Part shown: positions 9,075-28,533 of the stretch, piece by piece
Layout: each line of letters starts with the position of its first letter
Position numbering within the stretch: position 1 is the stretch's first letter
Source of the DNA: Rhodoplanes sp. Z2-YC6860
GTDB taxonomy: Bacteria > Pseudomonadota > Alphaproteobacteria > Rhizobiales > Xanthobacteraceae
Length of the DNA stretch: 64,000 nucleotides
Reading direction: 5' to 3'
NCBI RefSeq assembly: GCF_001579845.1
Contig: NZ_CP007440.1
Location: 3,680,029 to 3,744,028 of the forward strand
Notes under the pieces: generated by a model
What the model was told of the DNA's origin: nothing
The model's input: only the letters and a program-made list of their open reading frames with translations
The model's database searches: none
Translations under genes and position numbers: made by a program

Positions 9075-9599
9075 ATGAGCGACCAAACGGCACGCACCGA
9101 AACCAATTCGAGCAACAAGGAAAGAACCGCCGACAGGGTTTCGGAAGCGGCGCGCAGAGCTTTCGAGCAGGCGTCGGGAATGGCCCAGGATGCTGGCGCA
9201 AAGGCAAAACAGGCTGCGTCCGAAACGGCCGCCACCATGACCTCGCAGGTAAAGGATATGCTGGACCAGCAGATAGGCAGCGGTGCCGGCATGGCCCGCC
9301 ATTTCGCTGGTTCAATGCGCGGTGCGGCGGACGATCTCGACCGGCAATCGCCGCTCGTCGCCGGCTTCGTTCGGACATTTGCCGATCGCGTCGATCACTA
9401 CGCGGGGGATTTGCAACACCAGACCGCCGAGCAGTTGACGCGTGCTGCTGCGGACTTCACCCGCAAGCAGCCGGCTCTGGTGTTCGGCCTCGCGGCGTTC
9501 ACGGGCTTTCTGATGTTCCGGACGTTTAAGAACACCGGCACGGTGAGCTCCCCTTCGATCCAGCCCGCGGAAGACGCCGATGCGGCAAAACAGGGCTAG
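9075..9599 (+). CDS. Membrane-anchored amphipathic-helix protein (YqjD/ElaB-like architecture)
   Basis: A 174-residue protein. The N-terminal two thirds are Ala/Gln/Lys-rich helix (AARRAFEQASGMAQDAGAK and similar). A short C-terminal hydrophobic segment, KQPALVFGLAAFTGFLMF, follows at about residues 134-151. This layout, with an amphipathic coiled region and a C-terminal anchor after a KQP motif, is that of YqjD/ElaB (DUF883-type) proteins, though identity looks low. It has a strong GGAGGAG site and an EcfG-like promoter just upstream. It heads an operon with a holin-like gene and two similar proteins. Confidence 0.65.
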   Translation: MSDQTARTETNSSNKERTADRVSEAARRAFEQASGMAQDAGAKAKQAASETAATMTSQVKDMLDQQIGSGAGMARHFAGSMRGAADDLDRQSPLVAGFVRTFADRVDHYAGDLQHQTAEQLTRAAADFTRKQPALVFGLAAFTGFLMFRTFKNTGTVSSPSIQPAEDADAAKQG

Positions 9600-14817: not shown

Positions 14818-15795
14818 CTACTCCGGCTTGATGCCCGCTTCCTTGATCAGATTGCTCCAGTTGGCGAGCTGAGTCTGGACATAAGTTGTGAATTCTTTGT
14901 GGCCGGCCCAGAACATTTCGACGCCGGACCGCTGGAACTGCTCCTGCGCCTTGGGTTGCTGGACGGCGTTATGGACCGCCTTCTCTAGCGTGCTGACGAC
15001 ATCGGCGGGCAGGTTGGCCGGGCCGGACAGGCCGCCCCACGGTATGATCTCGAAGCCTGGCATCACCGTCTCGTTGAGCGTCGGCACCTCGGGAAGCACG
15101 GGGCATCGTGTTTTGGTGAACACGGCGAGCGCGCGAGTCTTGCCGCTCAAGATGTGCGGCATGCCGGTGTTCAGGTCAGGCACCATCATGTCGATCTGTC
15201 CGCCGATCAGATCGGTCATGGCCGCGGGATTGCTGCGATAGGGGACGCGGGCAATATCGAGATGCAGTCGCAGCTTCAAGATCTCGCCGACGATCTGGCC
15301 CATGTTGTTGCCATGGCCATAGCTCAGCTTGCCGGGGTTGGCCTTGGCATAGGCCACGAGGTCTTGGATTGAGTTGATCGGCAGGTTCGAACGCACGGCG
15401 ATGTACGATGGGTAGCTGCCGATCCGCGCGATATGCGTGAAATCCTTGACCGGGTCGATCGGCAGTTCTTTGTACAACGCGGCGCCGGAGTGCAGTGAAC
15501 TCGCGGTGGCGAGCAGGGTGTAGCCATCGGGCACCGCCCTCGCCACGGCGACCGCGGCAACCAGTCCGCCGCCGCCGACCTTGTTTTCGACGATCACCGG
15601 CTGGCCGAACTGGTCCTGCAGAGATTGCGCAATCAGACGCGCGGCGGCGTCGGAGATGCTGCCGGGAGCGAACTGGTTGATGATGGTGATCCGCTGTGTC
15701 GGATAGCCTGCGGCGCGCGCAACATAAGGCGCCGCCGCCATGAAGGCCCCCACGCCGAGCGTATGCTCGAGAACACGTCGCCGCGTGACCTTCAT
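14818..15795 (-). CDS. TctC (Bug) family tripartite tricarboxylate transporter substrate-binding protein
   Basis: A 325-residue periplasmic binding protein with a twin-arginine-like start (KVTRRRVLEHTLGVG) and an AxA-type cleavage region near VARAAG. Family marks are FAPGSISDAAARLIAQ, VIVENKVGGGG, VPDGYTLL, ANPGKLSYG, the loop PYRSNPAAMTDLIGGQID, LPEVPTLNE and a terminal NLIKEAGI. It captures a small carboxylate in the periplasm. No tctA or tctB membrane gene is present in the window, so it is an orphan. It is divergent from the ThDP enzyme gene with a shared candidate operator between them. Confidence 0.9.
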   Translation of the reverse strand: MKVTRRRVLEHTLGVGAFMAAAPYVARAAGYPTQRITIINQFAPGSISDAAARLIAQSLQDQFGQPVIVENKVGGGGLVAAVAVARAVPDGYTLLATASSLHSGAALYKELPIDPVKDFTHIARIGSYPSYIAVRSNLPINSIQDLVAYAKANPGKLSYGHGNNMGQIVGEILKLRLHLDIARVPYRSNPAAMTDLIGGQIDMMVPDLNTGMPHILSGKTRALAVFTKTRCPVLPEVPTLNETVMPGFEIIPWGGLSGPANLPADVVSTLEKAVHNAVQQPKAQEQFQRSGVEMFWAGHKEFTTYVQTQLANWSNLIKEAGIKPE

Positions 15796-15845
15796 GAATC
15801 CGCCCCGTCTCGCATATTGTATTTAGGCACCGGAGCTTAGTCAGG

Positions 15846-15867
15846 AATACCTTGCTCCCAAAGTCAT
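15846..15867 (+). promoter_or_regulatory. Candidate MarR operator, site 1
   Basis: The site begins ATACCTTGCT and ends CAAAGTCAT. It aligns without gaps to the site at 19791-19812 read in reverse, matching at 16 of 22 positions. It lies between the divergent tctC (start 15795) and ThDP enzyme (start 15985). Of the four sites it has the weakest dyad. Confidence 0.4.
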
Positions 15868-15984
15868 CTTTAACATGCGAGAACGTCATAGCTACCGGCC
15901 CACGCGTGAGGCATTCTGTCGTACCTGTTTCTGCATGGCCGCAGAGAGATAGTTTTGTCCTAAAACAATCGCGGCTTGGAATGA

Positions 15985-17718
15985 ATGATGTTGAGAGGGA
16001 GCGAGACCTTGAGGAACGATTGCGACGGCGGCGAAGCCATCCTGGAAGCTTTGCGCAATCTCAAAGTGGATTACGTCGTCTCGTCGCCAGGGTCGGAATG
16101 GCCTTCGTTCTGGGAGGCGATGGCCAGGCAAAAGCGTGATGGCAAGCCGGGGCCGACTTACATCGATTGCGGCCACGAAACGCTCGCGGTCGCGGTTGCG
16201 GCCGGCTACACCAAGTATACGGGACGCATGCAGGCGGTGCTGCTGCATGCAGGCGCGGGGCTCCTGCAAGGATCGATGGCGGTCGGCGCGGCGCGCGCCA
16301 TGGAAGTCCCGATGCTGGTCATGTCGGGCGAATCCGCGGGCTACGGCGAGAGCGAATTCGACCCTGGCTCGCAATGGTATCGCAACCTCAGCGTGGTCGG
16401 CGGTCCACAGCGGCTGATCGAACCGCTGGTGAAATTCGCGCAACAGTCACCCGCTCCGGAAATCCTCTACGAAAGCGTCGTGCGCGCCGGTGAACTGGCC
16501 CAGCGTCAGCCCAAGGGGCCGACCTACATGAGCGTGTCGATGGAAACCATGCTGCACGGCTGGCAAAGGCCCGACGCGCTGCGTAGCGTGCCGCCGGCGC
16601 CGAAGTCGCAGCCGCTGCCGCCGGAGATCGAGGCTGTGGCGGCCGCGATCGCGCAGGCCAAGAATCCGATGATCGCCGCCGAGAACGCCGGGCCGAGCTC
16701 GGATGCGTTCGATGCGCTGGTCGAGCTGGCCGATCTGATGGCCATCCCGGTGGTGGAAGGAGCGGGCGCGTTCTTCGGCAATTTTCCGAAGGACCACGAC
16801 CTCTATGTTGGCCAACAGATCGATCCGTTCTACGGCAAGATCGACCTGGTGGTGCTGGTCGAGACGCGGGCGCCCTGGTACCCGCCGAGCAATGTCCCGC
16901 CGGGCGCGAAGATCATTTCGATCAGCGAAAACTCGATCAAGGGCCACATGGTCTACCAGACCATGCATGCAGGCCAGTATCTCGAGGGCGACGTCGCGAC
17001 GATCCTCAAGCTTTTGTCGGAGGCCCTGCGCCGGATCGGCGTTGATCGGGCGATGCTGACGGAGCGCCGCGCCCGTTGGACCGCGGAGCACCGCAAATGG
17101 AAGGAGCGTGTGCTGGCCGCCGAGGAGAAAGCGGCGGCGCTCGACGTCATCACGACGCCGCTTCTGGCCAAGACGCTGCGCGAGGTCATGCCGTCCGACA
17201 CGGCCTACGTCGACGAGACCATCATTCATTCCTCGGGGCTTCGCGAGCATCTCGACTGGAAGGACGCGCTGACGTTCTTCCGGGCGCCGAGCGGACTGGG
17301 GCAGGGGCTCGGCTATGCGCTGGGGGTGAAGCTCGCGGCGCCGAAGCGGCCGGTCGTGGTGGCGATTGGCGACGGCACGTTCATGTACAACCCCGTCGTG
17401 CCGGCGGTTAGCTTCGCGGACGAGCACAAGTTGCCGCTCCTGATCGTCATTGCCAACAACGCCAAATACGCGGCGATGCAGTATTTCCACGACAGCTTCT
17501 ATCCGCAGGGCATCTCGCCCGGGAACCAGGACTACTACGGCGTCTACATCAAGGGACCGAAGTACGAAGAGACCGCGAAGCTCGTCGACGGCTATGCCAT
17601 GCAGGTGGCCAAGCCCGCCGATCTGAAGCCGGCGCTCCAGGCGGCGCTCAAGAGCATCCAGGCCGGCAAGACGGCAATCCTGAACGTGATCATGCCGGCG
17701 GCTGGCAAGCTTCGGTGA
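15985..17718 (+). CDS. Thiamine diphosphate-dependent enzyme (acetolactate synthase/benzoylformate decarboxylase superfamily)
   Basis: A 577-residue, three-domain ThDP enzyme. The N-terminal Pyr domain has the cofactor-activating Glu65 in DCGHETLAVA. A central domain follows, then the PP domain with the ThDP/Mg motif GDG at 462-464 and NN at 491-492. No small regulatory subunit gene is adjacent, and the setting is catabolic, so decarboxylation or carboligation of an oxo-acid is likelier than branched-chain biosynthesis. An in-frame TTG at 16009, after an AGGGAG site, is an alternative start. It probably belongs to the MarR-controlled island. Confidence 0.85.
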   Translation: MMLRGSETLRNDCDGGEAILEALRNLKVDYVVSSPGSEWPSFWEAMARQKRDGKPGPTYIDCGHETLAVAVAAGYTKYTGRMQAVLLHAGAGLLQGSMAVGAARAMEVPMLVMSGESAGYGESEFDPGSQWYRNLSVVGGPQRLIEPLVKFAQQSPAPEILYESVVRAGELAQRQPKGPTYMSVSMETMLHGWQRPDALRSVPPAPKSQPLPPEIEAVAAAIAQAKNPMIAAENAGPSSDAFDALVELADLMAIPVVEGAGAFFGNFPKDHDLYVGQQIDPFYGKIDLVVLVETRAPWYPPSNVPPGAKIISISENSIKGHMVYQTMHAGQYLEGDVATILKLLSEALRRIGVDRAMLTERRARWTAEHRKWKERVLAAEEKAAALDVITTPLLAKTLREVMPSDTAYVDETIIHSSGLREHLDWKDALTFFRAPSGLGQGLGYALGVKLAAPKRPVVVAIGDGTFMYNPVVPAVSFADEHKLPLLIVIANNAKYAAMQYFHDSFYPQGISPGNQDYYGVYIKGPKYEETAKLVDGYAMQVAKPADLKPALQAALKSIQAGKTAILNVIMPAAGKLR

Positions 17719-17732
17719 ACGGCTGACGTGCC

Positions 17733-18548
17733 TCAGCCGCGGTGAGTTCGAAGAAAATCGCGGAGGATTTTCTCGAAGCGGTCGTACGCCTCGATGGCGG
17801 CGTAGTGACCGACGCCGTCGAGACAATGGTAGACGGACCCAGGGATGCGGTCGGCGATGGCGCGGGCGGTCTTCGGCGGACAGACCGGATCGTCCGCGCC
17901 GCACACGACCATCACCGGCCGCTTTGTGTCGAGAACCGAAAAGATATCGGCGCGGCACATCATCTCCCAGGCGGCGAGATAGCCGGCCTTGGGCACCACC
18001 TTCATGACCTCGACCGCCTCGTCGGCCACGGCGGTCGACACACTCGGGCTGAGGATGGTCCGGCCGCGCTGGATCGCGAACTCTTTTGGTCCAAGCCGCT
18101 CCATGTCTGCGATGCGCGCGAGGCGGATCGGCTCGCGTTCGCTGTCCGGTAGCGTGCCGCTGCCGGTGACCGGCTGCAGCAACGTCATGGTGCGGCTGTC
18201 GATCAGATCCCGATGGCACGCCGTCGCAATCATGATCGAGCCGAGCGAATGCCCGACCAGATGCGGCCGCTTCACACCGAGTTTGTGCAACAGCGCCGCC
18301 AGGGACGCAGCGTAGCCCTCGGCGGTCAGCCGCGCCGTGGGCAGCGCGTCAGAACCGCCATAGCCGGGCGCGTCCCAGGCGATGACGCGGTGGTCGCGCG
18401 CAAACGATGCGAACTGACGCTGGAAGGACCCCGAATAGCCGCCGATGCCATGGACCAGGACCAGGGGCTCGCCCTGGCCGGCCTCGCGCCAGCTCACGGT
18501 CAGACCGTCGATCGTCGTCTTTTGCAGATCGGGCAGGGCGCTGCTCAT
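17733..18548 (-). CDS. Alpha/beta hydrolase
   Basis: A 271-residue alpha/beta hydrolase: oxyanion region LVHGIGGYSG, nucleophile elbow GHSLGS (Ser101), Asp in CGADDPVCPP and His in GVGHYAAIE near the C-terminus. Similar enzymes cleave C-C bonds of ring-fission products or esters and thioesters; the substrate cannot be read off. The start overlaps the acyl-CoA dehydrogenase stop (ATGA), so the two are coupled. Confidence 0.87.
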   Translation of the reverse strand: MSSALPDLQKTTIDGLTVSWREAGQGEPLVLVHGIGGYSGSFQRQFASFARDHRVIAWDAPGYGGSDALPTARLTAEGYAASLAALLHKLGVKRPHLVGHSLGSIMIATACHRDLIDSRTMTLLQPVTGSGTLPDSEREPIRLARIADMERLGPKEFAIQRGRTILSPSVSTAVADEAVEVMKVVPKAGYLAAWEMMCRADIFSVLDTKRPVMVVCGADDPVCPPKTARAIADRIPGSVYHCLDGVGHYAAIEAYDRFEKILRDFLRTHRG

Positions 18549-19699
18549 TTGGAATACTGCTCCAGCACGTGCCGGGCGAGCGTCATGCGCAGCACCTCCT
18601 CCGGCCCTTCGGTGATCATCATGCTGCGTTGATCGCGCCAGAGTTTCTCGATCGGCAGTTCCTTGGTGAAGGCGATGCCGCCGTGAATCTGGATGCATCG
18701 ATCGGCCGCCTGGAAAGACAACCGGTCGCCCAGCATCTTGGCCATATAGGCTTCGTTGCGGATGTCTTCGCCGCGCTCGTGCTTCCAGGCGGCGTGATAG
18801 ACCAGGAAGCGGAGTTGCTGAAGGTCCATGTAAGAATCGACCAGCATCCATTGCACCGCCTGCCGGTTCGCGAGCGGCTGGCCGAACGTCACGCGCTGCT
18901 GCGCGTAGCTGACCGACATCTCCAGGCAGCGTTGGATGACGCCAAGGCCGCGCGCGCCGTGGCGCACCCGGCCGGTGTTGATCCAATCCTGCGCCATCTT
19001 GAAGCCGTCGCCTTCGTTGGCGATCCGCTTCGACACCGGAATGCGGACATTGTCGAACGCGAGTTCGCAAGGCTCGTCGTCCATCATCGTGGGCTGCGCG
19101 CGGACGATCGAGACTCCGGGCGTGTTGATGTCGACGAGGAACGCCGTGATGCCGCGGGCGCCTTTGGAGCGGTCGGTCGAGGCCATCAGCTGGATGAAAT
19201 CGGCATGCTGCGCGTTGGTGATGAAGCGCTTGTAGCCGTTGATGACGTAGTGGTCGCCGTCGCGAACGGCGGTGGTCTTGATGCCGGCCGGATCGCTGCC
19301 GGCATCGGGCTCGGTCAAGGCAAAGCAGCAATCCTTGTCGCCCGATATGATCGGATAAAGATAGTCCGCCTTCTGCTCGTCGGTGAGGTGATAGAGGATC
19401 GGGCTCACCTCCGGCCCGAAGATCGAGGTCTTGCGCGTCGGCAGCGCAATGGAGCGGCCGAGCTCTTCCCAGATCACCACGCGGGCCATGAGCCCCAGGC
19501 CCAGCCCGCCGTATTCCACCGGCGTGGAGATGTTCCAGTACCCCATCTCCTTGGTCTTCGCTTCCAGACGAGCGCGAACGTCGGGCTTGAGGTCGGGGCC
19601 ATCATACGCTTCGCGTTCGATCGGAATGATTTCGCGATCGACGAAGCGGCGGAGCTGCTCCTTCATCAATTTGAGTTCTTCCGGGAGCTCGAAATCCAT
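18545..19699 (-). CDS. Acyl-CoA dehydrogenase family protein
   Basis: A 384-residue flavoprotein of normal length. The FAD/substrate signature FALTEPDAGSDPAGIKTTA lies in the middle domain, QRVTFGQPLANRQAVQWML in the C-terminal helical domain, and QIHGGIAFTKELPIEKLWRD near the end. The catalytic base is probably the Glu of ITEGPEEVLR (about residue 363), the usual position for this class. It oxidises an acyl-CoA at the alpha-beta bond. ATG 19699 follows AAGGA. It heads a two-gene operon with the hydrolase, with a MarR-like site about 92 bases upstream. Confidence 0.92.
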   Translation of the reverse strand: MDFELPEELKLMKEQLRRFVDREIIPIEREAYDGPDLKPDVRARLEAKTKEMGYWNISTPVEYGGLGLGLMARVVIWEELGRSIALPTRKTSIFGPEVSPILYHLTDEQKADYLYPIISGDKDCCFALTEPDAGSDPAGIKTTAVRDGDHYVINGYKRFITNAQHADFIQLMASTDRSKGARGITAFLVDINTPGVSIVRAQPTMMDDEPCELAFDNVRIPVSKRIANEGDGFKMAQDWINTGRVRHGARGLGVIQRCLEMSVSYAQQRVTFGQPLANRQAVQWMLVDSYMDLQQLRFLVYHAAWKHERGEDIRNEAYMAKMLGDRLSFQAADRCIQIHGGIAFTKELPIEKLWRDQRSMMITEGPEEVLRMTLARHVLEQYSK

Positions 19700-19790
19700 C
19701 GTTGTCCTTACTCGATCTGGCCGGCTCATACGCGGCCGTGTGACGCGGCTTTTTGATTTTACGTCGCAGCCAGGCGAAGCCTATCAAACA

Positions 19791-19812
19791 ATGCCTTTGT
19801 AACAAAGGTATT
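19791..19812 (-). promoter_or_regulatory. Candidate MarR operator, site 2 (best dyad)
   Basis: It contains the perfect inverted repeat CCTTTGT-A-ACAAAGG at 19794-19808. It lies between the UbiD-family stop and the acyl-CoA dehydrogenase start, which is 92 bases away. It is shared almost base for base with site 3 at 22507. Confidence 0.6.
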
Positions 19813-19834
19813 TGCGGTTGCGGCCCGAAGCGCC

Positions 19835-21364
19835 TCAAGAACGAGGTTTGGCGTCGCCCGCTGCAGGCTTCGTCTCGTTGTAGAACTGCTCCAGCACGGG
19901 CGGGAGTCCGGGGAGGCGGTAGTCCTTCCAGCGGTTCTTGACCTGCGTGTACATGCTTTCGCGAAGCGCGGTCCGCACCGGCGCCGAGGCGCGGTGCTGA
20001 TAGGGCGTGCAGGCGTTGACCAGCACCTTCGAGCCGAACGGCTTGACCTCGGGCGCGAGGCTCGGGTCGGCGCGGAACGACATGGTGTTGCGCAGCACGT
20101 CGAGATCGTCGGCAGGATTGCAGCGTGTGCTCATCGCCCACATGACTTCGTCGAAGTTCGTCGGATCGACATCGTCGTCCACCGCGACAATCCATTTGGT
20201 GTAATAGGTCGCCGCGGGGCAGTGCGCGGTCAACGCCAAAGCCTGACTGGCATGTCCGGGGTACATCTGTTTGATCGACACCACGACGAGGCAATTCGCC
20301 GCCGCCGCCGGCTGATGGCAATAGACGCCCTGGATGCCCGGCACCTTCATTTCCGCGAGGTTGTCGCGGATGCGCGCGGATCGCATGATCGCCTGGTAGG
20401 CGCCGATCTCGCATGACGGATAGGTGGCCATCAGCGCTGCCGTGATGATCGGCTGCCGCCGCATGTGCAGCGCCTGGACTTGGATCACCGGTTTGCGCGA
20501 CGGCTTGCCGCTGTAGAAGCCGTGGAATTCGCCGAGCGGACCTTCCATCTCTTCGTCGCCCGGATAGACGAGGCCTTCGATCACCATCTCGGCCCGCGCC
20601 GGGATCGGCAGGCTGACGACTTCACCGTCGGTCAGTTCGACGGGCGCCCCCATGATGCCGCCGGCCACGTCGAGCTCGGATTCATCCGCCGCATAGCGTT
20701 GCGAGCCGACCATCATCAGCACCGGATCGATGCCAAAAGCCGCGACGACCTCCGCGGGCTTGCCCTGCGCCCAGGCGGCCTGGCAATCGAGTTGCCCGTG
20801 CCGGCCCGGCACGAAGTTCAGCCCCACGCGGCGCGGTCCGTGCAACTGCTGCCGATAGACGCCGACATTGATGCGGCCGGATGTGGCATCGGCCGTGAGC
20901 GTGATGCTGCCGGTGCCGATGAACGGTCCGCCGTCCGCGGGCCAGAACGTCGGCACGGGAAACTTCGTCAGGTCGATGTCTTCGCCGCGCAGCACGATCT
21001 CATTGACCGGAGCATCGCGCTTGTCGACCTTGACCGGTGCGATGCGCCGGCCGGTGATCCGGCTGGTGGCCGCCACCATGTCCTGCGTTCTCATGGCCGG
21101 ATCGAGACCCATGGCGAGCGCATAGCGCTCCTGGCTCGAGCCCAGCATGTTGGCGAGCACGCGCGCGCCGTGCGGATTGTCGCTGAATTGCTCGAACAGC
21201 AGAGCCTTGGCGCCGAGCTGGCGTGTGGCCATGAAGGTGACCGCGCCAAGCTCTTCGTCCGGATCGACCTTTGTGTCGATGCGGTGCAACTCGCCGTGCC
21301 GCTCAATGAGAGCGAGCCATTCGCGGAGGTCGCGCCAACGTGAAGGATCTGACGTGTTGCCCAT
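19835..21364 (-). CDS. UbiD-family prenyl-FMN-dependent decarboxylase
   Basis: A 509-residue protein. UbiD marks include INVGVYRQQ (metal/prFMN region), the central motif EGPLGEFHGFYSG (equivalent to EGPFGEY in UbiD), and KWIVAVDDDVDP near the C-terminus. UbiD enzymes reversibly decarboxylate aromatic or unsaturated acids with prenylated FMN. No ubiX-like gene is in the window, so the cofactor would come from elsewhere. Its setting with a CoA transferase and dioxygenase argues for catabolism rather than ubiquinone synthesis. ATG 21364 follows GGGATGGAAG. It follows a tctC gene in the same operon. Confidence 0.9.
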   Translation of the reverse strand: MGNTSDPSRWRDLREWLALIERHGELHRIDTKVDPDEELGAVTFMATRQLGAKALLFEQFSDNPHGARVLANMLGSSQERYALAMGLDPAMRTQDMVAATSRITGRRIAPVKVDKRDAPVNEIVLRGEDIDLTKFPVPTFWPADGGPFIGTGSITLTADATSGRINVGVYRQQLHGPRRVGLNFVPGRHGQLDCQAAWAQGKPAEVVAAFGIDPVLMMVGSQRYAADESELDVAGGIMGAPVELTDGEVVSLPIPARAEMVIEGLVYPGDEEMEGPLGEFHGFYSGKPSRKPVIQVQALHMRRQPIITAALMATYPSCEIGAYQAIMRSARIRDNLAEMKVPGIQGVYCHQPAAAANCLVVVSIKQMYPGHASQALALTAHCPAATYYTKWIVAVDDDVDPTNFDEVMWAMSTRCNPADDLDVLRNTMSFRADPSLAPEVKPFGSKVLVNACTPYQHRASAPVRTALRESMYTQVKNRWKDYRLPGLPPVLEQFYNETKPAAGDAKPRS

Positions 21365-21448
21365 CTTCCATCCCCGACTGCAGCGTGCCCTCGCCAAGAT
21401 TTTCTCCGGCGGTCCGCAAGAGACCGCCGGAATTTATTCGGCCGCCGG

Positions 21449-22444
21449 TTATTCCGGCTTTACGCCGGCCTTGGCCAACGCATCGTGCCAGTGCGCTGCT
21501 TCGCCCGCCACCTGGTCGCCCATGGCTTTCGGCGTGGTCCAGGCCGGATCGATCCCCTGCGCCTGCAGCTTTTCGATCACCGCTTTATCCTTGCTTGCTT
21601 TTTCGGCCGCGGCGTTGAGCTTGGCAATGATGGTGTCAGGCGTTCCGGCCGGTGCAACGAGGCCGAACCAGATGCCGTCGTTGACACCCTTCATCTCGAT
21701 GCCGCTTTCCAGGAAGGTTGGAACATCGGGCAGGGCCGCGATACGGGCGCGTCCGGTGATGCCGAGAATCTTCAGCTTGCCCTGCTTGGCGAGCGCCGCC
21801 GTGGTGCTCGGGCCGGTGAAGACGCCGGACACATGGCCGCCGACCACATCGTTCACGACCAGAGCCGTGCCGCGATAAGGCACCAGCAGAATCTTGGCGT
21901 CGGTCGCCTGCAAGAAGGACAAGGCGCTGAGATAAGGCGGGGTCCCTATGCCCGAATGCCCGATCTTGATGTCTTCGGGATGCGCGTTGGCGTATTTGAC
22001 CAGCTCCTGCACGTTCGCGACGGGAACATTCGTCGCCACGCCGAGCGTGTGGAAGGTCCGGCCCGTCAGGCTCACCGGGCGGAAGTCCTTCACCGGATCG
22101 TAGCCGGGTTTGAGCTGCGTGTTCGGCACAACGACGAAGGACGGCTCGACCGCCAGCAGCGTGTAGCCATCCGCATGCTGGCGCGCCGCATAGGCTGTGC
22201 CGAGCGCGGTTGCTGCGCCGGGCTTGTTTTCGATGATGATCGCCTTGCCAAGCTGGACTTCCATCGAGCTTGCGACAATGCGGGCGATCACGTCAGGCGG
22301 ACCGCCTGGCGGATAGGGCACGACGACGGTGATTGGGCGGCTCGGATAGTCGTCCGCCGGCTGGGCCAATGCGGGCCCAAGGTTTGCCAGCAGCGCCAGG
22401 GATCCGGCGACAGCAGCAAGGAGTCGGGTGGTTCTGAGGTTCAT
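21449..22444 (-). CDS. TctC family substrate-binding protein
   Basis: A 331-residue protein with a clear Sec signal (MNLRTTRLLAAVAGSLALL, then ALAQ). Family marks are VVVPYPPGGPPDVIARIVA, IIIENKPGAATALGT, ADGYTLLAVEPS, PYRGTALVVNDVVGG, LPDVPTFLESG and a terminal ALAKAGVKPE. It is the first gene of an operon with the UbiD-family decarboxylase, suggesting that the ligand may be that enzyme's substrate or a precursor. ATG 22444 is chosen because the signal peptide starts there. A MarR-like site sits 63 bases upstream. Confidence 0.9.
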   Translation of the reverse strand: MNLRTTRLLAAVAGSLALLANLGPALAQPADDYPSRPITVVVPYPPGGPPDVIARIVASSMEVQLGKAIIIENKPGAATALGTAYAARQHADGYTLLAVEPSFVVVPNTQLKPGYDPVKDFRPVSLTGRTFHTLGVATNVPVANVQELVKYANAHPEDIKIGHSGIGTPPYLSALSFLQATDAKILLVPYRGTALVVNDVVGGHVSGVFTGPSTTAALAKQGKLKILGITGRARIAALPDVPTFLESGIEMKGVNDGIWFGLVAPAGTPDTIIAKLNAAAEKASKDKAVIEKLQAQGIDPAWTTPKAMGDQVAGEAAHWHDALAKAGVKPE

Positions 22445-22506
22445 TCTCGTCACAGCCTTTCGTTGTCGCGACGGACCATCTGCCGTCGCAGTGTCCCGGC
22501 GGCTGA

Positions 22507-22530
22507 CTACCTTTATAACAAAGTTATATT
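22507..22530 (-). promoter_or_regulatory. Candidate MarR operator, site 3
   Basis: The plus strand reads ACCTTTATAACAAAGTTATA, with the dyad TATAAC-AAA-GTTATA at 22514-22528. Read in reverse it matches site 2 at 17 of 21 positions. It lies between the MarR gene and the tctC-ubiD operon it would control. Confidence 0.6.
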
Positions 22531-22576
22531 GGGATGCACCTTGGGCCATGACTGCCGGCGACGAAGGGCCGCGTTG

Positions 22577-23128
22577 CTATTTTGCATCCATCGCCGGGAG
22601 CTCGAACAGCTGCAGGGAGCGGTCGGCGCTCTCGACCAGATCGACCATCTTGTGCCGCAGCAGTTCAAAGTCGGTGGCTGTCAGGCTTTCGAAAAGCATG
22701 TTGTTCACCGGCCGCTGAACCGCAGTCAGGCTTTGCAGCAGCCGCTCCGCCTTCGCCGTGATGGTCAGAATGACGCGCCGCCGGTCGCTGGGATTCTCCT
22801 CCTTGGCGACCAACTTCGACGTCACGAGCTTTGCGACTTCGATCGTCACGAACGCCGGGCTGAAATGCAGGTGCCGCGCTATTTCGTTGACGCCAATGAT
22901 GTTTTTTTCCTGCTCGCGCGCGATGGCAATCAGGATCGTGTATTGCGTCCCCGACAGGCCGATGGCGTTGCCGAGCGCATTGCGCACCGCTTGAATGCGG
23001 GTCGCGAAGGCGAGCGTGTCGTGCACGAACTGCCGGAACAGGTCGTCGCTGCCGCGCACCAGAAGCTCCGGTCGCGAGACGGTATGAAATTTCCTGGGGT
23101 TCGGCCGGACCTTCCGGGACTTGCTCAT
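22577..23128 (-). CDS. MarR-family transcriptional regulator of the catabolic island
   Basis: A 183-residue winged-helix protein. The recognition region is VNEIARHLHFSPAFVTIEVAKLVTSKLVAKEENPSDRR (given here only as a landmark; key parts are HFSPAFVT and the wing NPSDRRRVILTIT). The flanking N- and C-terminal helices serve dimerisation. ATG 23128 is preferred over upstream in-frame codons because AGGTGG lies 8 bases before it. MarR proteins of catabolic loci are usually repressors released by a ligand, often an aryl-CoA or aromatic acid. Four similar dyad-like sites surround it. Confidence 0.88.
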   Translation of the reverse strand: MSKSRKVRPNPRKFHTVSRPELLVRGSDDLFRQFVHDTLAFATRIQAVRNALGNAIGLSGTQYTILIAIAREQEKNIIGVNEIARHLHFSPAFVTIEVAKLVTSKLVAKEENPSDRRRVILTITAKAERLLQSLTAVQRPVNNMLFESLTATDFELLRHKMVDLVESADRSLQLFELPAMDAK

Positions 23129-23308
23129 TGCTGACGCCACCTGCCGTCGAATCATAATCATCATGCCCAAATAGCGCGCATCGGTCAGCATGCGCCGGTC
23201 TGACCTCAGCCCAAATTTTTCGTCATGCGAAAAGCAAGGAGGCGCAAATCGCCGCGGCCGGAGATCCGGAGCGGCGCCCTGTTGACGGGCATCGCAATAT
23301 AACCGAAA

Positions 23309-23330
23309 AATACCTTTGCAACTAAACGAA
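23309..23330 (+). promoter_or_regulatory. Candidate MarR operator, site 4
   Basis: It reads ATACCTTTGCAACTAAACG from 23310 and shares the left half (AAATACCTTTG) with site 2 read in reverse; the right half is degenerate. It lies in the divergent region between the marR gene and the five-gene tctC-to-dioxygenase operon, directly before the likely start at 23331. Confidence 0.45.
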
Positions 23331-24311
23331 ATGGACAATTCGATGCGCATTCCGCGGTGGCCGTTGTTCGGTCTGGTCGACACGCTCGCGGCGATCGCGA
23401 GCCAGGCATGCGCCGACGAATTTCCGAGCCGGACGGTGCGCGTGCTGGTGCCTTACGCAGCAGGCGGGCCGAGCGATACCGGCGCGCGGCTGTTGTCTGT
23501 GCCATTCGGCAAGGCCCTCGGCTCCTCTGTCATTGTCGAGAACCGCGGCGGGGCGGGCGGGCTGACCGGCACCGAACAGGTGTTGCAGGCCGAGCCGGAC
23601 GGCTACACGGTGCTGCTCGGCGCCGTCGGGCCGCTCGTCTACATCCCGGTGTCGCGGACCGTTCAGTATAGCGTCAAAGCCGATCTCATTCCGCTCGGCC
23701 TTATCTGGCAGTCGCCTCTGGTTCTTGTGATCAATCCCAAGCGAGGCATCAAAAGCGTCGCCGAGTTCGTAGCCTATGCCAAAGCCAATCCCGGCAAGCT
23801 CAGCGTTTCGTCGGCTGGGCTCGGGACCAACACGCATATGGCGAGCGAACTGTTCAAGCACGAGGCCGGCATCGATCTGCTGCACGTGCCCTATCGCGGC
23901 ACCGGAGCGGCGCTGCCAGATCTTCTGTCGGGGCAGATCGATGCCACGATCTCGGACGTGGCCGTGATGGCGCCGTTGATCCGCGAGGGCAAGCTGATCC
24001 CGCTGGCCGTGACGGCGCCGCAGCGGTCGGCCCTGCTGCCCGACGTGCCGACCATGGCCGAAGGCGGCTTGCCGGGCGCGCAGACCGAGAACTGGTACGG
24101 TCTGCTCGTGCGCACTCAGACGCCGGCGCCTGTGGTCGCCAAGCTCAAGTCCGCGCTTTCAGAAGCCGTTGCAGCTCCGGAATTCCGCGCCGGTCTGGCC
24201 ATCCAGGGCGCCGTGATCCGCGAACCGGGGACCGATGCATTCGCAGCCTTGATCGAGTCCGAAACCAAGCGCTGGACGCCGATCATTCGGGACAACAATA
24301 TCAAGTTCTGA
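23331..24311 (+). CDS. TctC family substrate-binding protein
   Basis: About 326 residues. A weak signal-like N-terminus (IPRWPLFGLVDTLAAIASQA, then CADEF) is followed by the family marks VRVLVPYAAGGPSDTGARL, VIVENRGGAGGLTGTEQVL, EPDGYTVLLGA, YAKANPGKLSVSSAG, PYRGTGAALPDLLSGQID and LPDVPTMAEGG. Start candidates are ATG 23331 or 23343; neither has a strong ribosome binding site, and a MarR-like site abuts the first. It heads a five-gene operon: tctC, CoA transferase, tctC, dioxygenase alpha, dioxygenase beta. Confidence 0.88.
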   Translation: MDNSMRIPRWPLFGLVDTLAAIASQACADEFPSRTVRVLVPYAAGGPSDTGARLLSVPFGKALGSSVIVENRGGAGGLTGTEQVLQAEPDGYTVLLGAVGPLVYIPVSRTVQYSVKADLIPLGLIWQSPLVLVINPKRGIKSVAEFVAYAKANPGKLSVSSAGLGTNTHMASELFKHEAGIDLLHVPYRGTGAALPDLLSGQIDATISDVAVMAPLIREGKLIPLAVTAPQRSALLPDVPTMAEGGLPGAQTENWYGLLVRTQTPAPVVAKLKSALSEAVAAPEFRAGLAIQGAVIREPGTDAFAALIESETKRWTPIIRDNNIKF

Positions 24312-24353
24312 TGCCCGTCCGCGGCGCGGGCTCCTCCAGGCGAGAAACCAATC

Positions 24354-25523
24354 ATGAGCTTGCCACTGACGGGCATTCGCGTTGTCGAATTGACCACCAT
24401 GATCACGGGACCGTTGGCGGGCATGATGCTCGCCGATCTCGGTGCGTCGGTGATCAAGGTGGAGAATCCGGAGCGCGGCGATCCGTTCCGGAGCTTCCGC
24501 GGCGGTCTCTATGGCGGGCATTTCATTGCCTACAACCGCAACAAGCAAAGCGTGACGCTGGATCTGCGATCGGCTGAAGGGCTGAAATCGTTTCTCGCCC
24601 TGATCCGGAAGAGCGACGTTCTGATCGACAATTTCCGGGCCGGGGTTCTCGACAGGCTGGGACTGTCCAGCGAGCGGCTGATGAAGGAGAACCCGCGTCT
24701 CATCCATGCGTCGATCACGGGGTTCGGTGCCACCGGACCGTATCGCGACAGACCAGCCTATGACGCCGTGGCCCAGGCATTGGGCGGCATGTCTTCGCTG
24801 TTCCTCGACCCGGAGCAGCCCCAGGTGCAGGGGCCGACGCTGTCGGACAACGTCACCGGCTTCTACACGGCTTATGCAGTGCTCGCGGCCTTGTTCGAGC
24901 GGGTGCAGACCGGCAAGGGCAGGCGGATCGAGACCAGCATGCTGGAGTCGACGATTGCCTTTGCGCCGGATGCGTTCGTCAACTTCAAGCGTCATGGCAT
25001 CAAGGGCGCGCCGAGCACTCGTGCTGCCGTGTCGCAATCCTATGCGTTCCGTTGCGGCGACGGACGCCTGATCGCGGTTCACCTGTCATCGCAGCCGAAG
25101 TTCTGGGAAGGCCTGCTGAAAGCAATCGGCCGCGCCGATCTTGCTTCGAACGAGCTGTTCTCGACGCGGGAGAAGCGGATCGCGAATTACCATGCGCTCG
25201 GCGAGGCGCTCTCGAAGGTGTTCGCCACCCGGCCGCAGGAGGAATGGGGAACGCTGCTCGATCAAAACGACGTGCCGTTTGCTCCGGTCCTGGACATCGA
25301 AGAGGTCATGTCGGATCCGCAGATTCAGGAACTTGGAACCTTCTATCAGGTGAATCACCCGACCGAAGGCGAGGTGTGGGGCATCCATCCGCCCCTGCTG
25401 TTCGATGGCGAACGGCTGGGTCGGACATCGGCTCCGCCGACGCTTGGCGAACACACCAAAGAGGTCCTCGACGAACTGAAGCGCGAAGACGATGCGGCTC
25501 GGGACGCCAAGGCGGCAGGCTGA
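24354..25523 (+). CDS. CaiB/BaiF (type III) CoA transferase
   Basis: A 389-residue protein. The N-terminal Rossmann part has GIRVVELTTMITGPLAGMMLADLGA and VIKVENPERGDPFRSF. The catalytic Asp is expected in RPAYDAVAQALGG (about residue 137). The C-terminal part has DVPFAPVLDIEEVMSDPQ, a class landmark. It would move CoA between a donor acyl-CoA and the substrate acid. Only one such subunit is present, so a homodimer is expected. It is co-directional with tctC and Rieske genes. Confidence 0.92.
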   Translation: MSLPLTGIRVVELTTMITGPLAGMMLADLGASVIKVENPERGDPFRSFRGGLYGGHFIAYNRNKQSVTLDLRSAEGLKSFLALIRKSDVLIDNFRAGVLDRLGLSSERLMKENPRLIHASITGFGATGPYRDRPAYDAVAQALGGMSSLFLDPEQPQVQGPTLSDNVTGFYTAYAVLAALFERVQTGKGRRIETSMLESTIAFAPDAFVNFKRHGIKGAPSTRAAVSQSYAFRCGDGRLIAVHLSSQPKFWEGLLKAIGRADLASNELFSTREKRIANYHALGEALSKVFATRPQEEWGTLLDQNDVPFAPVLDIEEVMSDPQIQELGTFYQVNHPTEGEVWGIHPPLLFDGERLGRTSAPPTLGEHTKEVLDELKREDDAARDAKAAG

Positions 25524-25619
25524 GTCGCCGCTGCGCAGTTGGCCCGATTGCTGCATTCGCTATCGCACATCGCTCGTGCATCGCCACCGCCCATGACAAC
25601 GTTGCTCCACCGAGGTTCC

Positions 25620-26585
25620 ATGAAACTTTCAAGATCAGCGATCGGTCTCGCGGTTGTTGCGATGCTCGGGCAGACGCCTGCATTCGCGGATGACTATCCG
25701 TCGCGCCCGATCAAGATCATCGCGCCGATCGCGGCCGGCGGGCCGAGCGACACGGCGGCGCGGCTCGTGGCGCAGACTTTGTCTCGCCACCTGGGCCAGA
25801 GCATCGTGGTTGAGAACCGCACCGGCGCCGGTGGTGTCGTTGGCACCGAAATCGCCGCCAGCGCTCCACCGGATGGATACACACTGCTGCTCAGCATCGC
25901 GGCGACCTTCACGGTGATCCCGCTTTCGAAGAAGGTCGGTTACGACCCTGAGAACGATTTCATCGCGCTGGGGCAGATCTGGCAGGCGCCGCAGGCCCTC
26001 GTCGTGAGGGCGAATTCTCCGTTCAACTCCGCCGCCGATCTGGTCAGCTACGCCAAGGCCAATCCCGGCAAGCTCACCTTCGGCTCGGCCGGCATCGGGA
26101 CGACGACGCATCTTTCCATCGAGCTGCTCAAGCGCGACGCCGATATCGATGTGACGCACGTGCCCTATCGCGGCACCAGCCAGTCGGTTGCCGACATCAT
26201 GGGCGGCACCATCGACGCGGCGTTCGGCGACGTGTCGAACGTCTCGCCGTTCGTCGAAGGCGGCAAGCTGAAAGCGCTTGCCACGACCGGCACCGAGCGC
26301 TCGGCGCTGATGCCGGACGTGCCGACCACGACCGAAGCCGGAATTCCCGGCGTGCGGACCGTGAACTGGTACGGCCTCCATGTTCAGGCCAAGGCGCCGC
26401 GAGAGATTCAGGACAAGCTCAAGGCCGCCGTGTTGGCGACGCAGAACGATCCGGGGTTCAAAGCCGCGCTGACCAAGAACGCGACGTCGACCGGGACCGT
26501 GGGCGCCGAGGCGTTCGACCGCATGATCCGCGAGGAGCGACAGCGGCTTGCGCCGGTGATACGTTCGCTCGGGCAGATTCAATAG
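25620..26585 (+). CDS. TctC family substrate-binding protein
   Basis: A 321-residue protein with a signal peptide (MKLSRSAIGLAVVAMLG, then AFADDYPSRP). Family marks are IAAGGPSDTAARLVAQTL, IVVENRTGAGGVVGTE, PDGYTLLLSIAATFTV, YAKANPGKLTFGSAGIG, PYRGTSQSVADIMGGTIDA and LMPDVPTTTEAG. It resembles the copy at 23331 more than the minus-strand copies, so these two are probably duplicates. ATG 25620 follows GAGG and begins the signal peptide. It lies between the CoA transferase and dioxygenase genes. Confidence 0.9.
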   Translation: MKLSRSAIGLAVVAMLGQTPAFADDYPSRPIKIIAPIAAGGPSDTAARLVAQTLSRHLGQSIVVENRTGAGGVVGTEIAASAPPDGYTLLLSIAATFTVIPLSKKVGYDPENDFIALGQIWQAPQALVVRANSPFNSAADLVSYAKANPGKLTFGSAGIGTTTHLSIELLKRDADIDVTHVPYRGTSQSVADIMGGTIDAAFGDVSNVSPFVEGGKLKALATTGTERSALMPDVPTTTEAGIPGVRTVNWYGLHVQAKAPREIQDKLKAAVLATQNDPGFKAALTKNATSTGTVGAEAFDRMIREERQRLAPVIRSLGQIQ

Positions 26586-26603: not shown

Positions 26604-27980
26604 ATGGACGTGCGCAGTCTCATCGACGTCAAGAACGGCACCGCGAGCCGCGAGATCTTCGTCGATCGCGACATCTACCGTCAGGAGCAGGAGCAGATCT
26701 TCGCCCGCGCCTGGCTGCTCGTCGGCCATGAGTGCCAGGTGCCGAATCCGGACGACTTTTACGTGTCGCGCATGGGCGAGGAGTCGGTGATCCTGACGCG
26801 CGATCGCCAGGGCAAGCTGCACGTCTTCCTCAACTCATGCCGCCATCGCGGCATGAAGCTTTGCCGTCACGACGAGGGCAACACCCGGGTTTTCAGCTGT
26901 CCGTATCACGCCTGGAGCTATTCGACCGACGGCGCGCTGGTCTCGACGCCCGGCGAGCTGTTCGGCGTGCCGGGCTACAAGAAATACTACCACGAGGAGC
27001 TCGACAAAAAAGAATGGGGCCTCGCGCCGGTCGCGCAGATGGTCAACTACCGCGGCACGATCTGGGCAACCTGGGACCGCAATGCCGCGCCGTTCGAGGA
27101 CTATCTTGGCAGCATGCGGTTGTGGCTCGACTCGGCGCTCGATCATCGCGACGGCCGGGACGGCGGCTCGACGCTGCTGGTCGGCGTGCAGAAGTGGCGC
27201 ATCAACTGCAACTGGAAATTCCCGGCGACCAATTTTGTCGGCGATGCCGCGCACGTCGTGGCGCACCGCTCGGTCGACATGGTCAACCTCAATCCGAGCG
27301 GCACCGAAGGCCGGAGGGATGAGCGGCCCGAGGGACACGCTGCGTTCGGCTGGCCCGATCTCGGTCATGGCGGCCTCGGCTTCGCTTCGCGCCCCGAAGA
27401 GGAATTTCCGCGGCCGGCGGCGTTCCAGAAATATCCGCACGTGGCGGAGTATCTGGCCAAGTCCGCGAAAGCCCATCAGGCGCGTCGCGCCGGGCGCATC
27501 CATCAGCAGGGCAAGGGCACGATCTTCCCGAACATGTCGTTCCACGAGGATCAGCCACGCACGATGATCGTGCATCATCCCAACGGACCGACGCAGACCG
27601 AGTTCTGGCGTTACTACCTGATCGATGCGGACGCGCCGGCCGAGGTCGTTGACACGCTGCGGCACTACTACATGACCTATTCGGGTCCCGGCGGGATGAC
27701 CGAGCAGGACGATCTCGAGAACTGGGCCTCGGCCACTGAAGCGAGCCAGGGCGCGGTCGCGCGGCGCTTGCCGTACAATTACCAGCAGGGGCTGCGCTAT
27801 TCGGTCCCGTACGAAGGCCTTCCGGGCGCGGTCTGGTGCGGCGAGCGGGTCACCGAACAGAACCAGCTGATCTGGCTCAAGCGCTGGGCCGAGTTCATGG
27901 AAGGGCGCGACTGGGATCAGTTGATGCGGCGCTCGCAGGTCGCGAACGACGTCGCGTTCCCGCTGAAGCTCGTGCGGTGA
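26604..27980 (+). CDS. Rieske non-haem iron ring-hydroxylating dioxygenase, alpha subunit
   Basis: A 458-residue protein. The Rieske [2Fe-2S] motif is complete: C79-x-H81, 17 residues, C99-x2-H102. The catalytic domain carries likely Fe(II) ligands D214, H217 and H221 in NFVGDAAHVVAH. The spacing is DxxHxxxH, one residue shorter than the DxxHxxxxH of naphthalene dioxygenase. With the beta subunit 4 bases downstream it should form an oligomeric terminal oxygenase that dihydroxylates or demethylates an aromatic substrate. No ferredoxin or reductase gene is present. It has no signal peptide, so it is cytoplasmic. Confidence 0.92.
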   Translation: MDVRSLIDVKNGTASREIFVDRDIYRQEQEQIFARAWLLVGHECQVPNPDDFYVSRMGEESVILTRDRQGKLHVFLNSCRHRGMKLCRHDEGNTRVFSCPYHAWSYSTDGALVSTPGELFGVPGYKKYYHEELDKKEWGLAPVAQMVNYRGTIWATWDRNAAPFEDYLGSMRLWLDSALDHRDGRDGGSTLLVGVQKWRINCNWKFPATNFVGDAAHVVAHRSVDMVNLNPSGTEGRRDERPEGHAAFGWPDLGHGGLGFASRPEEEFPRPAAFQKYPHVAEYLAKSAKAHQARRAGRIHQQGKGTIFPNMSFHEDQPRTMIVHHPNGPTQTEFWRYYLIDADAPAEVVDTLRHYYMTYSGPGGMTEQDDLENWASATEASQGAVARRLPYNYQQGLRYSVPYEGLPGAVWCGERVTEQNQLIWLKRWAEFMEGRDWDQLMRRSQVANDVAFPLKLVR

Positions 27981-27984
27981 TATC

Positions 27985-28533
27985 TTGAACGCAAGCCTGC
28001 CGAAGAGCTACGACGCGATCGCATTGCGCTACGAAGTCGAGGATTTCCTCAATCGCGAGGCCGACCTCGTCGACGAACGGAAGTTCGACGAATGGCTGAC
28101 ACTGTTCAGCGACGACCTGCAATACCGCATGCCGATCGTCCGCAACATCGCCGCGCCCAGCATCGCCCATGAATACCTGACAGGGCCGCTCGATATTTCG
28201 TGGTTCGACGAAGGCAAGGAAACGTTGGCCACGCGCGTGGCGCAGATCAAGACCGGCGTCCACTGGGCCGAGGAGCCGCTGTCGCGCACCTCGCATCTCG
28301 TCACCAACGTGCGGATCGTCAAAGCGGAGCCTTCCGTCGCCGATGCGCGCGAGGTCGAGGTGAGCTGCAAGTTTCTGGTCTATCGCAACCGCAACACCGA
28401 CACCGAGGACACGTTGATCGGCCGCCGCGCCGATGTCCTGCGACGCAACGGCGATTCATGGCTGATTTGCCGCAGAACGCTCTACATCAATCAGAGTGTT
28501 CTGCTGGCGGGAAACTTGAGCTTCTTTGTGTAG
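27985..28533 (+). CDS. Ring-hydroxylating dioxygenase, beta subunit (SnoaL-like fold)
   Basis: A 182-residue protein. The beta-subunit pattern is clear: VEDFLNREADLVDERKFDEWL near the N-terminus, YRMPIV, SHLVTNVRI, and the terminal LICRRTLYINQSVLLAGNLSFF. This subunit is structural and can shape specificity. The start is TTG 27985 with a GGTGA site inside the alpha-subunit end. It is the last gene of the operon. Confidence 0.9.
   Translation: MNASLPKSYDAIALRYEVEDFLNREADLVDERKFDEWLTLFSDDLQYRMPIVRNIAAPSIAHEYLTGPLDISWFDEGKETLATRVAQIKTGVHWAEEPLSRTSHLVTNVRIVKAEPSVADAREVEVSCKFLVYRNRNTDTEDTLIGRRADVLRRNGDSWLICRRTLYINQSVLLAGNLSFFV

Follow-up and report, generated by a model that had tools for sequence, protein, structure and literature searches.

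Whether one regulator governs several neighbouring groups of catabolic genes is the question raised by a locus of Rhodoplanes sp. Z2-YC6860, whose genome is a single contig of 8.19 Mb (NZ_CP007440.1). The window analysed here is a stretch of 64,000 nucleotides of that contig (positions 3,680,029 to 3,744,028). From about 14.8 to 28.5 kb it carries, in order, tctC1 (minus strand), a gene for a thiamine diphosphate (ThDP)-dependent enzyme (plus strand), genes for a hydrolase and an acyl-coenzyme A (CoA) dehydrogenase (minus strand), tctC2-ubiD (minus strand), marR (minus strand) and a plus-strand operon of tctC3, a CoA transferase gene, tctC4 and the genes for the alpha and beta subunits of a Rieske dioxygenase. 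An earlier reading of the sequence (the original prediction) had described four related sites, each upstream of a different transcription unit, and proposed that one MarR protein and one ligand switch the whole island. We find it very probable that a 23-base palindrome, repeated before several of these gene groups, is the binding site of a single MarR-family protein. As judged from sequence, its predicted control of the acyl-CoA dehydrogenase-hydrolase, tctC2-ubiD and tctC3-CoA transferase-dioxygenase units is well supported; the case for the ThDP enzyme and tctC1 is weak.

Predicted operator sites in the window and the genome

All four of the predicted sites are present, with 23 bp as their best shared register, and marR does lie in their midst, between the third (s3) and the fourth (s4). 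The third, originally placed at 22507-22530, was shifted by 1-2 bases and belongs at 22506-22528. The earlier match counts change slightly in the 23-bp register: s2 and s3 agree at 18 of 23 positions (formerly 17 of 21) and s1 and s2 at 15 or 17 of 23 depending on orientation (formerly 16 of 22), while s2/s4 and s3/s4 each agree at 15. The predicted operator s3, 61 bases before tctC2 of the tctC2-ubiD unit, is the best in the window (30.6 bits on the matrix described below). The predicted operator s2 (19790-19812), 90 bases before the acyl-CoA dehydrogenase gene, scores 29.6 bits and has a perfect inner dyad, CCTTTGTNACAAAGG. The predicted operator s4 (23309-23331) scores 16.2 bits and lies 11 bases before tctC3 in the divergent marR/tctC3 gap, the position at which most close orthologs carry the operator. 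The transcription units themselves are as originally described, the dioxygenase operon additionally containing a beta subunit gene (27985-28533), and s2, s3 and s4 each stand upstream of a unit of their own. The assignment of s1 (15846-15868) to the ThDP enzyme is weak: this operator-like sequence, ranked fourth in the window at 7.2 bits, is 116 bases from the start of the ThDP gene and 50 from that of the divergent tctC1, at which an adjoining promoter-like sequence found by promoter scan is directed. A further weak operator-like sequence, s1b (15948-15970; 7.0 bits, fifth in the window; 8 of 11 dyad pairs), stands 14 bases ahead of the start of the ThDP enzyme gene. It and a strong site at 5.36 Mb are additions to the original four.

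Site strength is graded by a matrix built from orthologs only, and is highly uneven (s3 and s2 strong, s4 moderate, s1 weak). MarR of the same type is present in Tardiphaga and Bradyrhizobium records, and the closest orthologs, at 51-61% identity, show a 23-bp palindrome, ATTAGCTTTGTNACAAAGCTAAT, on the upstream side of marR at a distance of 108-254 bases from the aligned portion of that gene (405 in one row). The matrix comprises 20 distinct ortholog sites, near-identical genomes having been merged to distinct site sequences, and none is from the window. Each training site is the sequence that best fits the consensus in the 500 bases preceding the marR match; the selection was not fully blind, as the consensus grew from the window's sites. 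Training sites match at 17-22 of 23 positions, apart from that of locus L050, which was retained at 14 of 23; L047 (53%, with no upstream site) was omitted, as were rows of lower identity. Over the 64 kb this matrix ranks s3, s2, s4 and s1 first, followed by s1b and then by a position of 4.8 bits, and all five top positions fall inside four intergenic gaps amounting to 582 of about 64,000 start positions. Comparison with orthologous loci, a check named by the original prediction, therefore places its four sites at the head of the list.

Several controls bear on these scores. Among 2000 column-permuted matrices at a threshold of 7 bits, 1880 matched none of the gaps, 113 matched one, six matched two, one matched three and none matched all four. 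In dinucleotide shuffles within each gap (5000 each), the observed maximum was never reached for s2, s3 or s4 and was reached 51 times for s1, and two sites of at least 7 bits in the s1 gap arose in none of the 5000. The 45 loci without this MarR (296,191 bases, including repeats where loci overlap; eight of the loci were fetched as weak pattern matches) contained no position of at least 15 bits and four of at least 7, the best being 11.3 bits in L157, over 1.5 kb away from the ThDP gene of that locus. A 23-mer palindrome consensus drawn by eye from the window also ranked the four sites above every other position in the 64 kb, with at least 16 matches occurring 0.02 times per simulated window; this test is circular, and the operator was consequently looked for in other genomes.

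The strong form of the site is rare in the Rhodoplanes genome. With up to 3 mismatches, the s2/s3 pattern occurs three times forward and four times reverse in the 8.19 Mb, versus one and none in the reversed control. A more symmetrical, stringent pattern occurs at three places with 0-1 mismatch (s3, s2 and, at 5.36 Mb, position 5,360,876); a consensus scattered over many unrelated promoters, which the original prediction had said would tell against it, was not what the pattern found. At 3 mismatches the stringent pattern adds ten places, within background (13 in all versus 20 in the control). Both patterns miss s4 and s1, and the rarity therefore covers strong sites only. In 20 genomes, a looser pattern gave exactly one exact match in 18, two in G187 and none in G052 (where a single match has 1 mismatch); its one-mismatch matches in these genomes (32 versus 19 in the control) are largely background. 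Pattern counts alone are indecisive because the looser pattern finds 3 matches in the Rhodoplanes genome itself versus 2 in its reversed control, and it is the matrix scores that decide. Used by itself at 3 mismatches, the core pattern was useless genome-wide (125 matches versus 135 in the control).

The predicted operator at 5.36 Mb (5,360,874-5,360,896; 9875-9897 of L071) scores 33.0 bits and lies 12 bases before a tctC-like gene, which is followed by an isochorismatase-domain gene. With two strong sites and a moderate one inside the island and, by pattern, one strong site outside it, the same operator stands at several units and is rare elsewhere, and because of the 5.36-Mb site the regulon probably extends beyond the island. 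Upstream of this site is a gene for a 789-aa protein, which by eye resembles an FAD monooxygenase joined to an old-yellow-enzyme domain; beyond it, 3.5 kb from the site, is an open reading frame that by eye is MarR-like.

The operator also keeps a regular distance from a promoter element. In all 18 ortholog loci counted, TTGAC precedes the operator by 16-27 bases, reading toward hpaC, whereas in the opposite direction TTGAC was found within 14-30 bases of none of the 18; the frequency of this spacing at random places in the window is 0.011. The count takes in 18 of 26 loci: it omits L044-L046 (whose site is as in L042), L047, L050 and L064-L066, together with the second strong site of L059 (9522) and the 24.0-bit site of L062 (9679). 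The distance is exactly 27 in L042, L043, L048, L049 and L067 (Tardiphaga-type genus), at the 5.36-Mb site and at s4, where the promoter scan places the -35-like TTGACG of the presumed tctC3 promoter at 23282-23287 (plus strand).

These data bear on a narrower explanation, which we consider possible but unlikely: that only s2, s3 and the 5.36-Mb site function, s4 being a decayed half-site and s1/s1b chance occurrences, so that the tctC3-dioxygenase operon and the ThDP enzyme stand outside MarR control. It overlaps with the explanation we prefer, as those three sites are common to both. In its favour, few of the 11 dyad pairs are kept in s4 (4) and s1 (5), and the s1 score is the one that shuffles equalled. 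However, s4 keeps to the base the TTGAC distance of five ortholog operators, it occupies the gap used by most close orthologs and its score was equalled in no shuffle. Likewise, the s1 gap holds a pair of sites that no shuffle reproduced. We regard s1 and s1b as suggestive when taken as a pair, short of established.

The MarR protein and its predicted action

The marR gene (22577-23128, minus strand) encodes a 183-aa winged-helix regulator whose MarR domains exceed the curated cutoffs (PF12802, MarR_2, 47.4 versus 27 bits; PF01047, 30.9 versus 24.6 bits). As is usual for the family, palindromic operators are predicted near its own gene and its targets, both in the window (s2-s4) and beside its orthologs. 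MarR homologues were found at E 1e-20 in 103 of 296 sampled genomes of the bacterial family. A tree was made of 61 distinct rows (tblastn matches of at least 85 bits, distinct segments), in which the operator label of the window was set by hand and L013-L041 had only about 1.5 kb of flank. In it the window MarR groups with Tardiphaga-type MarRs (support 94/94) within a set of 36 rows (fork 86/90, open). Among the other 35 rows of this set, 32 have a site of at least 29 bits in the available DNA up to 4 kb away, the sites of L059-L063 lying outside the training set; one row has a site of 15.4 bits, and the remaining two lack one in that range. Fifteen other MarRs form a branch in which eight rows have sites of 13-29 bits and seven fall below 13, and these sites mostly do not contain the CTTTG core. 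The recognition helix differs along the same lines: it reads TIE in all 23 rows given for the set of 36; TT (8), TS (2), TA (1) or TVE (1) in the 12 given for the branch of 15; and TNE (4) or TIE (1) in the five given for a separate branch of seven. MarR protein and operator thus appear to change together. Because the operator is found beside orthologous marR genes, binding by the product of this marR, as originally predicted, is strongly supported at s2 and s3 and well supported at s4.

It is quite improbable that a different regulator occupies these sites, whether a MarR homologue encoded at 1.96, 2.59 or 7.17 Mb (L069, L068 and L070), a more distant MarR or the MarR-like reading frame near the 5.36-Mb site, with cross-talk among them. 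There are candidates for such a role, namely the three homologues at E 1e-20, MarR-like tblastn matches (30-32%) beside two other HpaB genes (L131 and L132) and the reading frame just named, and the 2.59-Mb homologue adjoins a 14.8-bit site with one intact CTTTG half. The three homologues, however, fall outside the tree set of the window MarR, and the best sequences beside them score 14.8, -5.7 and 6.3 bits, with the CTTTG core missing from at least one half. The operator-like dyads at these three loci are themselves different.

We favour the explanation that this MarR, probably as a dimer, binds the 23-bp palindrome (half-site about ATA[C/G]CTTTGT) and would silence the acyl-CoA dehydrogenase-hydrolase, tctC2-ubiD and tctC3-CoA transferase-tctC4-dioxygenase units as well as the remote tctC-isochorismatase-like unit at 5.36 Mb. 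An operator whose first base follows that of TTGAC by 16-27 bases should cover the spacer, the -10 element or the start region, the usual place of a repressor, and bound MarR would thereby cover the promoter downstream of its -35 box. Some MarR proteins are activators, and activation at these sites is an alternative that we hold to be highly improbable: at s4, at the 5.36-Mb site and in all 18 ortholog loci the operator lies on the downstream side of TTGAC. Repression by promoter blocking is the best reading. A ligand, either an aromatic acid or the corresponding CoA thioester, would free the promoters, bringing on genes for uptake (TctC) and breakdown together; a single ligand for the whole island, as originally proposed, would follow from the single regulator. 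The genes for tctC1 and the ThDP enzyme may also be controlled, through the weak pair s1/s1b. Overall, we consider it likely that MarR represses at least three neighbouring units and the 5.36-Mb unit in this way, with release by an aromatic acid or CoA thioester. We reject the notion that s2 is instead a terminator of ubiD, with a six-pair stem directly after the stop codon: the minus-strand terminator scan does include 19808-19794, but its total of 8 compares with a shuffled mean of 6.9, the T-run is poor and the s2 sequence matches the operator found in the divergent gap of most close orthologs.

A number of observations weigh against the MarR regulon as we describe it. First, at the level of the sites, s4 has only one good half and s1 scores low; TTGAC is missing at the conserved distance from s1, s1b, s2 and s3, of which s2 alone has TTGA, at 26; no site above 5.4 bits was found in the fetched flanks of 19 ThDP-homologue loci of relatives (L135-L153); the looser pattern was barely above its control in the Rhodoplanes genome; and the ortholog sites were originally found through a consensus seeded with those of the window. 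Second, the window MarR is on a long branch and its placement is unsure, the support of 94/94 being just under the starred level. The two rows of its set with no site within 4 kb are L047 (20.4 bits 6 kb away, beside hpaC) and L064 (none), and, conversely, L074, L076, L079 and L087 of the separate branch of seven have sites of at least 29 bits, from which it follows that the operator is older than the set of 36 or not exclusive to it. In L047 and L059-L064 (MarR 48-53% identical), no such site lies within 500 bases upstream of marR. In L059-L063 the operator adjoins other nearby genes, being downstream of marR in L060, L061 and L063. Third, the island was not found in any other genome by searches with UbiD (E 1e-120; 3 of 397 genomes sampled from the order, 43-45% identity outside the Rhodoplanes genome itself), the dioxygenase (E 1e-130; 6 of 385 genomes of the class, 52-56% identity outside) or the ThDP enzyme (E 1e-90; 25 of 296 genomes of the family, best 66%), each count including the Rhodoplanes genome; the ThDP enzyme had no match among plasmids. 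As a result, s1-s3 could not be traced in synteny.

The island genes and the proposed history of their control

The island probably serves the uptake and breakdown of an acid, probably aromatic. On the minus strand are tctC1 (14818-15795; Pfam TctC, 219.4 bits), the alpha/beta hydrolase gene (17733-18548; Abhydrolase_1), the acyl-CoA dehydrogenase gene (18545-19699; Acyl-CoA_dh N, M and C), the UbiD-family decarboxylase gene (19835-21364; Pfam UbiD, 195.6 bits, and over the TIGR00148 cutoff) and tctC2 (21449-22444; TctC, 189 bits). The ThDP-dependent enzyme (15985-17718; 577 aa; TPP_enzyme N, M and C) is encoded on the plus strand, as is the operon of tctC3 (23343-24311; TctC, 221 bits), the family III CoA transferase gene (24354-25523; CoA_transf_3, 369.1 bits), tctC4 (25620-26585), the dioxygenase alpha subunit gene (26604-27980; Rieske and Ring_hydroxyl_A) and the beta subunit gene (NCBIfam PRK10069, 192.3 bits, cutoff 145). 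The tctC4 reading frame is named by resemblance (tblastn to TctC-like genes of relatives; no NCBIfam match), and the closest solved structure to the alpha subunit is 8k0a, a 3-phenylpropionate/cinnamate dioxygenase. Four TctC-like binding-protein genes thus lie within 12 kb (14818-26585).

The relatives of this MarR are found in a different setting. Of 26 loci examined around relatives, each spanning 8 to 20 kb, 22 have genes for the flavin reductase HpaC and the hydroxylase HpaB near marR, the exceptions being L050, L064, L065 and L066; a cupin gene is present in 19. Unlike most of these loci, the island gave no HpaB in Pfam and NCBIfam family scans. The Rhodoplanes genome has eight HpaB homologues, and each of its three other MarR homologues adjoins one whereas the window MarR adjoins none. 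In L050, near 10539, a MarR 51% identical is accompanied by no HpaBC match in 20 kb and only a decayed 15.4-bit site.

Part of the present arrangement may be old. At five loci ubiD has an additional site of 6.8 to 20.5 bits directly ahead of it (L043, 1960; L044, 6080; L045, 6076; L048, 5857; L062, 4857), in parallel with s3 before tctC2-ubiD; the first bases of these additional sites overlap a TTGAC box, and a TctC gene adjoins the ubiD. Their occurrence suggests that UbiD and TctC under this operator are an older theme. L059, with one strong operator at 2002 ahead of hpaC and one at 9522 ahead of a gene for a periplasmic binding protein, is a further example of a regulon of several units. 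In the lineage of the window, HpaBC may have been replaced or lost, and the Rieske dioxygenase, CoA transferase and other units gained. We propose tentatively, as a little short of an even chance, that a MarR lineage which elsewhere serves HpaBC, typically with a single exact operator in each genome, came to control a Rieske/CoA transferase/UbiD island and that its operators multiplied to further promoters and a distant locus. If true, this multiplication would be a traceable case of regulon rewiring and would illustrate how the targets of catabolic regulators shift. The four-site reading becomes a testable regulon, with an operator family that spans several genera of one bacterial family and with named promoters that are expected to respond and others that are not. 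Tying the UbiD, CoA transferase and dioxygenase set to one sensor would also offer a route to its substrate.

Comparison with known MarR-controlled catabolic systems

HpaR is a MarR repressor of the hpa-meta operon for aromatic acid catabolism (PMC7180172). The likeness lies in the HpaB-type hydroxylase genes near the relatives of the window MarR; in contrast, the window MarR itself is far under the NCBIfam HpaR cutoff (TIGR02337; 27.3 versus 121.2 bits) and its island has no HpaB by family scans. The auxin catabolism regulators MarR_73/IadR and IacR are MarR repressors beside catabolic genes that an aromatic acid releases (PMC9613470). By label, no auxin regulator was among the 14 solved chains that match the window MarR at E 0.001. 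A search of the literature by operator letters gave only unrelated papers among those listed, and the operator was not found in print, a weak negative from a search mostly at title and abstract level with thin coverage of subscription literature.

BadR of Rhodopseudomonas palustris and Aromatoleum sp. CIB is a MarR-type repressor of catabolic genes whose ligand is a CoA thioester of the pathway, and the Aromatoleum protein has two operators overlapping divergent promoters (PMC9795900). The operators differ when compared by their letters, CAAN4TTG for BadR versus the 23-bp palindrome with its CTTTGTNACAAAG core here; the site shared within the window is the CTTTGTNACAAAG dyad, and no window scan aimed at CAAN4TTG was made. 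The parts and logic of the system are known from MarR-controlled catabolic clusters such as those of BadR and the auxin MarRs. Seen against these, a MarR-operator regulon at this locus is well supported by sequence comparison, and we regard it as a new instance of an established type of gene control, one whose apparent history of rewiring is of interest.

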